Origin: Opitutia bacterium
Lineage (GTDB): Bacteria > Verrucomicrobiota > Verrucomicrobiia > Opitutales > Opitutaceae
Reading direction: 5' to 3'
Length of the DNA stretch: 32,144 bases
Assembly: GCA_947472765.1 (NCBI GenBank)
Contig: CANJCM010000058.1
Coordinates: forward strand, 1 to 32,144
Shown: positions 7,268 to 29,860 of the stretch, piece by piece
Position numbering within the stretch: position 1 is the first letter of the stretch
Layout: each line of letters opens with the position of its first letter
The notes under the pieces: model-generated
Databases searched by the model: none
Seen by the model: only the letters and a program-made list of their open reading frames with translations
Told to the model about the DNA's origin: nothing
Made by a program: the position numbers and the translations under genes

Positions 7268-7336
7268 GTGGCACGGGTCTCCCGACCCGTGATTTACTTT
7301 CCGTGCCGTCATCATGGGTCAGGAGACCCATGCCAC
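7268..7336. repeat. Paired-hairpin repeat, family 2 (CACGGGTC type), copy 1
   Basis: GTGGCACGGGTC-tccc-GACCCGTG at 7268-7291 faces CATGGGTC-agga-GACCCATGCCAC at 7313-7336 across about 21 bases. Each arm is itself a hairpin, and the two arms together form terminal inverted repeats of about 24 bp. Confidence 0.9.
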
Positions 7337-9235: not shown

Positions 9236-9453
9236 GCCATGTTTGAGCCACCCCCCGCCCCGACGGGCACCCCTCTCGCGCCGGAACGATGCAGTGGAAA
9301 GAAACCGGCGGGTGTGGGCACCCGCCCTCCATGGCCGGAGAACTTTTCGTAGGACCTACGTTTCTCCTCTAAAGGAGCAATCAATGGAGGGACGGTGCCC
9401 TCACCGTCCAAGTCGGTATAATGTCCGACTGAACGTTCACCGTTCGGTGTAGG
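9236..9453. repeat. Composite paired-hairpin repeat, family 3 module, copy 1
   Basis: In order the stretch holds CACCCCTCTCG-CGCCGGAACGATGCAG, the hairpin GGCGGGTG-tgggc-ACCCGCC followed by CTCCATGG, a CGTAGG-a-CCTACG palindrome (about 9348-9360), CTCCTCT and GAGCAATC, then TGGAGGGACGGTG-ccct-CACCGTCC. The same modules in the same order occur on the other strand at 29395-29620. A third, shorter match covers 31945-31998. Confidence 0.8.
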
Positions 9454-9522
9454 GCCGGCGCTCGCCGCCGGGCCGGTTCTCGAATGAAGGACAGAGGCCT
9501 GCCGACGAGCGGCAGCCCTACA
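9448..9522. repeat. TGTAGGG-ended inverted-repeat element, family 5, copy 2 (75 bp)
   Basis: It starts TGTAGGGCCGGCGC and ends GGCAGCCCTACA, and it shares GCCTGCCGACGAGCGGCAG with copy 1 at 5337-5468. The middle is shorter and different, consistent with a deletion in this copy or an insertion in the other. Confidence 0.85.
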
Positions 9523-9706
9523 CCTTTTTGTGACTTTCCAAGTCCTCGTGCTCGTTATCGTAATCGTGCTCGTTCTCTCTCGTCCGACTCGAGCACGAGC
9601 ACGACTACTGGGACGTTCGCGAAACGGCCCAACTGCATCGTTCCGGCTCGAGAGGGGTGGCGCGAAGCGATGGGGTGTGTTCCGCAGCCAGGCGAAAAGC
9701 CACCCC

Positions 9707-9780
9707 TGGAGGGCCGGTGTCCCCACCGGCCAGTTTCAGGACGTCGAATGACTCTGGCGGGTGAGGGCACCCGCCCTCCA
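9707..9780. repeat. TGGAGGGC-ended paired-hairpin element, family 3, copy 2
   Basis: The hairpin GGCCGGTG-tcccc-ACCGGCC at the left faces GGCGGGTG-agggc-ACCCGCC at the right, and the element is bounded by TGGAGGGC and GCCCTCCA. An inverted version with both hairpins exchanged occurs at 23265-23337. Confidence 0.88.
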
Positions 9781-9798
9781 TTTATAGCAGCGCCACCG

Positions 9799-17320: not shown

Positions 17321-17409
17321 ATGCGATTCGGACCTTGGCCGGCGGTTGCGAGCCAGAGTGATTGAGCCTGAAACCAGGAAGCCGGGAACCGATTCAGTGG
17401 CCCCTGCTT

Positions 17410-17480
17410 GTCATTCTGAGCGCAGCGAAGAATCCACTCGCACGACTCAGCCATGGATTCTTCGCTGCGCTCAGAATGAC
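17410..17480. repeat. 71-bp element with 26-bp perfect terminal inverted repeats
   Basis: The left arm at 17410-17435 begins GTCATTCTGAGCGCAGCG and the right arm at 17455-17480 is its exact reverse complement, with a 19-base centre. This GTCATTCTGAGCG...GAAGAATC word occurs in many unrelated bacterial genomes. It lies between the S4 gene and the end of the GDSL hydrolase gene. Confidence 0.92.
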
Positions 17481-17541
17481 AGAAAAGGGAATCCCATCCT
17501 GCTGAATCCTGTCATCCTGTCCAAAGTCCGGGGAGATCCTG

Positions 17542-23217: not shown

Positions 23218-23249
23218 GGGGCGGGCGTTTTCGCCCGCCCCTTTTTTTT
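23218..23249 (+). terminator. Rho-independent terminator after the cytochrome b562 gene
   Basis: GGGGCGGGCG pairs perfectly with CGCCCGCCCC around a TTTT loop and is followed by eight T residues. It is the strongest terminator in the window. Confidence 0.95.
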
Positions 23250-23264
23250 GACGTACGGCATGGA

Positions 23265-23337
23265 TGGAGGGCGGGTGCCCTCACCCGCTGAAAGTCTTTC
23301 GGTTGGTCCTTTGGCCGGTGGGGACACCGGCCCTCCA
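23265..23337. repeat. TGGAGGGC-ended paired-hairpin element, family 3, copy 3 (73 bp)
   Basis: GGCGGGTG-ccctc-ACCCGC at the left and GGCCGGTG-gggac-ACCGGCC at the right lie inside TGGAGGGC / GCCCTCCA ends. It is the inverted counterpart of 9707-9780. The following bases, about 23350-23400, share CTTCGACTAGCTCAGAGCCT and a GGCAGGCCGT-type segment with the family 5 element at 5337-5468. No gene lies in the 314-bp gap around it. Confidence 0.88.
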
Positions 23338-29332: not shown

Positions 29333-29860
29333 GAAAGTAGAAAGTAAGAAGGCTGAATTAAGAAACCGGGCAGGTGAAACACACCCCGGCGCTGCGCGCC
29401 ACCCCTCTCGAGCTGGCCCTCCACCGATCCGTGGACGTTCCGTCGGACGTTAGGCAGCCTTGGACGGTGGGGGCACCGTCCCTCCATGGATTGCTCTTGG
29501 AGAGGAGAGCGAACTGAAGTCTGAACGATCCGCCTCCCATGGAGGGCGGGTGCCCACACCCGCCGACTTCGTCCCACTGCCTCGTTCCGGCTCCAGAGGG
29601 GAGCTCGGAAGTGTCCTCAGAATACTCCTCGTTCGATCCAATCATATCGAGGTCCCCTCTCGAGTGCCGGGCGGAGCGACATTCACCCTGGGTCTCGCGC
29701 TGCGCACGGGCGCTTCGCGAAATCGTTCCTGCATGGGTGCCCGTAGGGCGGGGTGGGTGCAGAACGGGCTCACGCGCTCCACGACCGCCTTGCGGCCCCA
29801 ACGAAACGCGGCCACACCCACCGTGACGTTTTCGATCTCCGCACGTCTCCGCGTACCGCG
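29333..29860. other. 528-bp gap with a composite repeat
   Basis: No gene is seen. The stretch holds the inverted composite copy at 29395-29620 and then about 240 bases without a visible element. Open frames crossing it on both strands are repeat or GC-content artefacts. The promoter of the gene at 29861 should be at the right end. Confidence 0.7.
29395..29620. repeat. Composite paired-hairpin repeat, family 3 module, copy 4 (inverted)
   Basis: Read on the minus strand it gives GGAACGAGGCAGTGG, GGCGGGTG-tgggc-ACCCGCC then CTCCATGG, CTCCTCT and GAGCAATCCATGGAGGG, then ACGGTG-ccccc-ACCGT, the same order as 9236-9453. On the + strand the first hairpin is at about 29462-29480 (GGACGGTG) and the second at about 29540-29563 (GGCGGGTG). 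The module near its left end, CACCCCTCTCGAGCTGG, also recurs near 9640-9690. Confidence 0.8.

Follow-up and report, generated by a model that had tools for sequence, protein, structure and literature searches.

GGAG-tagged hairpins in an Opitutaceae genome form BIME/REPIN-like dimers and are probably elements of a RAYT gene in the same genome

A 32,144-nt stretch of DNA from an Opitutia bacterium (Opitutaceae; contig CANJCM010000058.1), referred to here as the window, contains short hairpins that resemble one another and recur in inverted arrangements. This raises the question of what kind of element these hairpins are, how they are combined and which enzyme might move them. We found that the window holds eight copies of a single hairpin family, organized into two composites and two simple pairs. 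Each unit consists of a GGAG tag, an 8-bp stem (GGCGGGTG, GGCCGGTG or GGACGGTG), a 4-nt loop and the return arm, and it is because of the GGAG tag that we count these hairpins as REPs. All of the hairpins named in an earlier note on this DNA were recovered in this form, including a pair that it placed at 9707–9780 and an inverted pair at 23265–23337. The first of these is a tags-outward (HH) dimer, with a GGCCGGTG REP on the (+) strand at 9708–9731 (tag at 9708–9711) and, after a 24-nt gap, a GGCGGGTG REP on the (−) strand at 9756–9779. The second HH dimer has a GGCGGGTG REP as its left half (23266–23289, (+) strand), in which 7 of 8 stem positions pair and the last stem base is mismatched, followed after 23 nt by a GGCCGGTG REP at 23313–23336 on the (−) strand.

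The remaining four hairpins lie in the composites. Composite copy 1 (9264–9453, (+) strand) reads left arm, GGCGGGTG REP on the (−) strand (9307–9330, with its (−) strand tag at 9327–9330), 55-nt spacer, GGACGGTG REP on the (+) strand (9386–9409, tag at 9386–9389) and right arm, with the tags facing each other (a TT dimer). Composite copy 2 (29418–29607, (−) strand) is inverted relative to copy 1 and holds a GGACGGTG REP at 29462–29485 (−) and a GGCGGGTG REP at 29541–29564 (+). A composite at 9236–9453 recurring inverted at 29395–29620 had been proposed; the inverted recurrence stands, but the outer ends at 9236, 29395 and 29620 were drawn somewhat too wide. The proposal that these two distant loci share about 200 bases was borne out by an alignment of 190 bp at 79% identity. 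The earlier note had also named the result that would speak against it, namely a likeness that is lost outside the hairpins. This did not occur, as the arms and spacer are still alike there, with 32 of 40 positions identical in the left arm, 32 of 55 in the spacer and 39 of 50 in the right arm. The likeness of the two composites extends past the hairpins, but it has limits: farther to the left (40–120 nt out) successive 20-nt bins hold 5, 3, 7 and 8 identical positions, and farther to the right (40–140 nt out) they hold 11, 6, 4, 5 and 10.

To describe the family across the 4.97-Mb genome, we searched for the pattern GGAGGGNNGGTG-N3-6-CACCNNCC, which carries the tag GGAG, and obtained 207 + 209 = 416 exact matches, with 0 + 0 in the reversed control. 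Pairing and position were analyzed in 40 mechanically chosen stretches of 20 kb (800 kb in all), where 98 tagged hairpins with at most two mismatches to the three types fell into 55 clusters. In 77 of the 82 frame-matched hairpins of this sample the NN positions were complementary (34 CG/CG, 22 AC/GT and 21 CC/GG; 5 were not), which upholds the common stem plan with compensating changes put forward from the raw sequence, although that plan had omitted the GGAG tag. Among 43 adjacent pairs of the sample (at most 150 nt apart), 41 joined GGCGGGTG to another type, to GGACGGTG in 23 and to GGCCGGTG in 18, where random pairing would give half mixed pairs (p 1e-10). Partners of the GGACGGTG type were placed tags-in (TT) in 19 of 23 cases, and GGCCGGTG partners tags-out (HH) in 15 of 18. 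Of the 18 simple ACGG/CGGG tags-in pairs, 16 were separated by exactly 55 nt, and simple CCGG/CGGG tags-out pairs (n = 10) had gaps from 21 to 138 nt. The pairing grammar is strict, with one common type and two partner types. Single hairpins, HH dimers and arrays all occur, yet the hairpins are not the freely reorderable modules once suggested: they nearly always form mixed pairs with GGCGGGTG, and the partner type largely sets the orientation.

With genes called by a home-made codon-usage gene caller, 95 of the 98 sampled REPs lay outside called genes at a coding density of 85.3%. Of 52 REP clusters, 18 fell in convergent, 29 in tandem and 5 in divergent gaps, compared with 96, 408 and 98 among all neighboring gene pairs (n = 602), giving an excess in convergent gaps (p 0.002) and a deficit in divergent ones (p 0.24). 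This mostly intergenic placement with its convergent excess favors an explanation in which the hairpins are kept as RNA-level signals, such as 3′ mRNA stabilizers, attenuators or terminators, and their copying is incidental. Folding lends it support as well, since both arrangements fold better than shuffled sequence as single-stranded DNA, the composite into nested arms (z −3.8) and the one HH dimer folded, at 9700–9786, into one long hairpin (z −5.0). However, by eye, a T run followed none of the eight window copies, and the window gave no matches to Rfam covariance models at gathering score. The window does contain a likely intrinsic terminator, a separate GC hairpin with T8 after it (23218–23249); it lies 16 nt ahead of the tag of one REP dimer, and it also counts against the RNA-level explanation. 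Neither a GGAG tag nor mixed pairing has, to our knowledge, a role in termination. On balance we consider it quite unlikely that RNA-level function accounts for the family.

Copying of whole composites, as claimed in the earlier note, was then assessed genome-wide. With the 190-bp composite as query, a DNA search gave 45 matches, at least 40 of them 164 bp or longer, on 29 contigs; this number of long composites is a lower bound, as 40 of 291 first-look candidates were scored, and it includes the query and the second window copy. The query aside, the long copies are 78–93% identical to it. After merging double matches caused by the pseudo-palindrome (88 rows, both strands), 48 distinct composite cores were left, of which 41 contained the two stem types exactly (main order in 38, the other order in 3) and 7 deviated. 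Core length was 103 nt, corresponding to a 55-nt gap, in 37 of the 48, and both arms were kept in 37 of the 48. The long matches, together with the fixed 55-nt gap in both simple pairs and cores, support copying of the composite as a whole.

The same data bear on how such copies arose. One possibility is that the RAYT is no longer active and that whole composites spread through exchange between existing copies, by ordinary homologous recombination or gene conversion. That no long copy looks very recent relative to the query fits this idea, as do the single copy of the RAYT in this genome (described below) and the description of TnpA-REP as a domesticated transposase (PMC8266576, in the sections covered). 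Conservation, however, is down to background by about 60 nt from the hairpins, in a profile of 88 rows in which many copies are represented by both strands. Gene conversion, moreover, does not place copies at new sites, and the long copies lie on 29 contigs. We therefore regard this route as unlikely. A second possibility is that a DDE transposase mobilizes the 190-bp composite as a MITE; its pseudo-palindromic form, fixed spacing and dispersal could be cited in favor. Its conservation fades over 40–60 nt without sharp terminal repeats, and the same hairpins are found single, as HH dimers, in arrays and flanking a Y1 gene, and we consider it very unlikely that the composite is a MITE. Transposase-mediated copying of REP units is the reading that we pursue below.

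Other repeat families recur around the composite. A dimer of another REP family (GTAG + GGCCGGCG..., with an inverted partner ending in CTAC) occupies 9449–9521 on the (+) strand and shares 5 nt with the right end of composite copy 1, and a GTAG-tagged element of a different family lies at most 110 nt to the right of the core in 18 of the 48 composite cores. Elsewhere in the window, a two-hairpin repeat (CCCGCTGC..GCAGCGGG and CCCTGTCC..GGACAGGG, often about 40 nt apart) occurs at 1007, 1055, 1797, 4161, 5508, 19499, 19547, 32053 and 32101; its two parts had 76 and 84 matches in the 800-kb sample, counted on both strands of near-palindromes, and 2 and 0 in the reversed control. A perfect 28-nt inverted pair, TGTCATTCTGAGCGCAGCGAAGAATCCA, is located at 17409–17481, with 27 related matches in the 800-kb sample and none in the reversed control. 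There is also a tandem 30-bp repeat (unit like CCCGCTTTCGGTGAAGCTTCGGCGGGCAGG) at 151–360, inside a predicted gene at 3–881 on the (−) strand.

To identify a candidate enzyme, we turned to the seven Y1 transposase domains of the genome. One Y1 gene, L036 on contig C32, has GGCGGGTG and GGACGGTG REPs on both sides, as the earlier note had anticipated by proposing to look for a Y1 transposase gene bordered by one of these hairpins. The L036 protein scored 99.5 bits against NF047646 (REP-associated tyrosine transposase; cut-off 80) and matched E. coli TnpA-REP (4er8) with an E value of 8.6e-9. In the alignment, E. coli W94, Q95, E100, H101, R104, Y115 and N119 correspond to L036 W101, Q102, D107, H108, R111, Y122 and N126, and the HUH motif (H61, H63) and catalytic Y122 are conserved in at least 90% of 46 RAYTs. 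Its nearest named relatives come from Opitutia/Opitutaceae genomes and are about 51–61% identical, and from this one gene the host would be Opitutaceae-like. In the array beside this RAYT, about 20 nt separate the tags-in REPs, versus 55 nt in the genomic composite; the composite is therefore not simply a copy of the flanks of the RAYT gene.

The flanking of a RAYT on both sides by these hairpins marks them as a REP/BIME family with its RAYT, and the REP/BIME-like label given at first sight was right: the hairpins are tagged, numerous and matched by a RAYT in the same genome. As in REPs generally, a 5′ tetranucleotide tag stands by a short stem-loop, copies are many and intergenic, and the RAYT is flanked by inverted copies. 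As in BIMEs, inverted REPs alternate with conserved inter-REP modules, and as in REPINs, the doublet at 9700–9786 is able to fold as one long hairpin. The tag, however, was GGAG in the 416 exact matches and not GTAG (or GT(A/G)G), and for this reason we call the family a variant and not a standard GTAG REP. Judging from sequence comparison, these hairpins are very probably REPs that are paired into BIME/REPIN-like dimers and belong, as non-autonomous elements, to a RAYT (TnpA-REP) gene of the same genome. The kind of element is known, but its tag is outside the GTAG/GTGG definition as far as the literature searched reaches.

A second Y1 gene, L037 (C37), is flanked on both sides by a GTGG + CACGGGTC family and scored 74.8 against NF047646, below the cut-off of 80; it is probably the RAYT of that family. 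This second REP-like family (GTGG + CACGGGTC..GACCCGTG) is represented in the window at 7272, 24431, 24492, 26306, 26354, 30606 and 30654, with a near-match at 7313. The larger Y1 genes of the genome (L031–L035) are like the TIRYTs (TIR-associated tyrosine transposases) of PMC3733652, as far as the sections covered describe them, but unlike L036 these genes with their inverted ends had no GGAG-family REPs alongside in the stretches read. By eye, L031, L032, L033 and L035 have ends with inverted repeats, GGGGTCATG or similar, resembling the GGGGWSAS given for TIRYT ends in the part of PMC3733652 seen. GTAGGGGCGCGC..GCGCGCC hairpins, found in the window at 1917 and 15833, also occur around L031 and L032.

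Comparison with known systems places the family close to several of them. The REP/BIME elements of E. coli (y, z1 and z2), as described in the covered sections of PMC8266576, are likewise tagged hairpins with a same-genome RAYT, TnpA-REP, and there y is common to the partners z1 and z2 as GGCGGGTG is to its two partner types here. Unlike E. coli REPs, the present ones have GGAG in place of GTAG and perfect 8-bp stems without a conserved bulge, and their orientation follows partner type. The GTAG-17, -19 and -20 repeats of Opitutus terrae are also verrucomicrobial and form both HH and TT dimers, in a genome termed 'highly enriched' in REPs, but their tags are GTAG or GTGG (excerpts of PMC3733652). 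According to a rule of thumb in the same excerpts, the TT spacer is variable and the HH spacer conserved; the reverse holds here, with a near-constant TT gap and varying HH gaps. Pseudomonas REPINs resemble our family in that an inverted REP doublet is the spreading unit and clusters lie beside RAYT genes, but they are doublets of one REP group (PMC3116915, in part), in contrast to the mixed pairs and the tags-in, long-arm composite found here. Tags listed in the sections of PMC3733652 covered are GTAG and the degenerate forms GYAG, GYRG, GTRG, GTMG and GTGG, and the REP search of PMC6006769, as excerpted, used GTAG or GTGG. The string GGAG had no matches in the available portions of PMC3733652, PMC8266576, PMC2817692, PMC6006769 and PMC3686654, and in the literature searched, whose coverage is incomplete, we found no GGAG-tagged REPs in print.

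We next asked how REPs and RAYTs are distributed among 56 relatives of the bacterium. The exact REP pattern was found in three congeners (5, 2 and 1 matches) and had no matches in the remaining relatives, whereas relatives of the RAYT are present in 38 of 57 genomes, its own included. Another stem, GCGGGGTG, occurs with a GTAG tag in G013 (170 copies), G001 (42), G015 (33), G030 (28), G017 (26), G020 (7), G023 (5) and G027 (1), with no copies in the window's own genome. When GCGGGGTG stems with any GNAG tag were counted, the tag was GTAG on 170 of 184 copies in G013. The closest RAYT, L098, is encoded in G193, where a wider pattern gave 82 GGAG-tagged matches; 71 of these were GGAG + GCGGGGTG by hand count, and by this count 71 of 74 GCGGGGTG stem copies with any GNAG tag carried GGAG. 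These are near-minimal natural pairs, in which the GCGGGGTG stem has GTAG in one genome and GGAG in another. At 74 of 80 RAYT loci in named genomes, retained for having at least 250 nt on both flanks, tagged hairpins were present on both sides in 44, on one side in 15 and on neither in 15, compared with 9 of 246 control windows nearby. REP and RAYT are not strictly coupled, since G017 and G030 hold their GTAG + GCGGGGTG copies despite only weak best matches to the C32 RAYT (E 1e-12 and 4e-20).

The recurrence of one stem with two tags bears on how the enzyme and tag relate. At 109 of 212 RAYT loci there was no repeated tagged hairpin within 400 nt; the commonest tag at the other 103, duplicates included, was GTAG at 50, GGAG at 42, GTGG at 6, GGGG at 3 and another at 2. 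Removal of duplicates and ambiguous loci left 94 RAYTs (GTAG 46, GGAG 40, GTGG 6, GGGG 2), a sample drawn partly by similarity to the C32 RAYT. Those left out were L177, L237 and L307 (tied tags), L303 (low complexity), L228 (a copy of L036) and identical proteins. In an earlier, smaller RAYT set, L036 (called GAGG) and L153 (called GTGG) had been relabeled GGAG and L122 and L177 dropped; the later tag caller assigned GGAG to L036 and L153 unaided. Of 129 columns tested in the 94 RAYTs, position 108 (C32 RAYT numbering) was the most associated with the second tag base, with columns 106 and 109 ranking second and fourth. His108 was present in 49 of 52 GTAG/GTGG RAYTs versus 2 of 42 GGAG/GGGG RAYTs. 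This position aligns with E. coli TnpA-REP H101, which is among the residues of GTAG guide contact (PMC6006769, in the sections covered). GGAG is combined with His108 in two exceptions, L098 and the RAYT of the window genome itself. Both have Tyr105 and Phe109, as do the GGAG/GGGG relatives L100–L103; the GTAG relatives L069, L071, L072 and L074 have Thr105 and Ile109. Two RAYT trees contained 3 and 4 tag changes, giving 1 and 2 independent pairs on supported branches, and with too few tag switches the independent-pair tests on these trees did not reach significance. Because the switches are few, the association between residue 108 and tag partly reflects shared ancestry.

We then applied a rule fixed beforehand, by which His108 predicts T at tag base 2 and any other residue G, to a held-out genome set centered on G194 (the genome of L160). 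This set had 90 loci and 87 RAYTs, of which 27 were labeled, and 24 loci were scored after dropping three with GAAG. The rule was correct in 15 of 24 (GGAG 8/8, GTAG 6/7, GTGG 1/9), with p 0.054 for the association over all 24; in a contrast chosen after seeing the data, His108 was found in 6 of 7 GTAG versus 0 of 8 GGAG loci (p 0.0014). The base-2 form of the rule failed this test, on GTGG. The GTAG/GGAG contrast at residue 108 is reproducible, and the simple base-2 reading is not. A tag code in the enzyme is possible. A broader proposal is that GGAG REPs form a large, separately evolving REP/RAYT specificity class, nearly as common as GTAG in our sample and outside the GTAG/GTGG definition, in which the RAYT guide-binding loop encodes the tag and both consequently switch together; we hold the chances for and against it to be about even.

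How these REPs would be mobilized can be outlined from the flanks of the C32 RAYT and from REP/RAYT correspondence, which suggest that this RAYT is the enzyme that moves them. RAYTs, that of E. coli among them, have been described as recognizing their tag and hairpin in single-stranded DNA, cleaving close to the hairpin and joining strands (PMC8266576, in part). We propose that the C32 RAYT may similarly bind tag and hairpin on single-stranded DNA, cut beside the hairpin and join the strand elsewhere. By analogy with those enzymes, the unit processed would comprise the inverted pair together with its spacer and arms, and with cutting beside the hairpin and rejoining elsewhere, such a pair would travel as one. 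The RAYT loop W-Q-x4-D-H-x-x-R may partly set tag choice, GGAG here and GTAG in sister lineages, in which case tag and enzyme would change together and the stem would change on its own.

A repeat noticed in raw sequence is now tied to its probable enzyme, and the residues by which a RAYT might choose its tag become a testable code. How RAYTs recognize REPs and how new REP families originate are questions still being worked out, and genome pairs with the same stem and different tags make RAYT recognition directly testable. Our results also suggest that surveys looking for GTAG/GTGG REPs alone may overlook a large part of the REP families in this group of bacteria.
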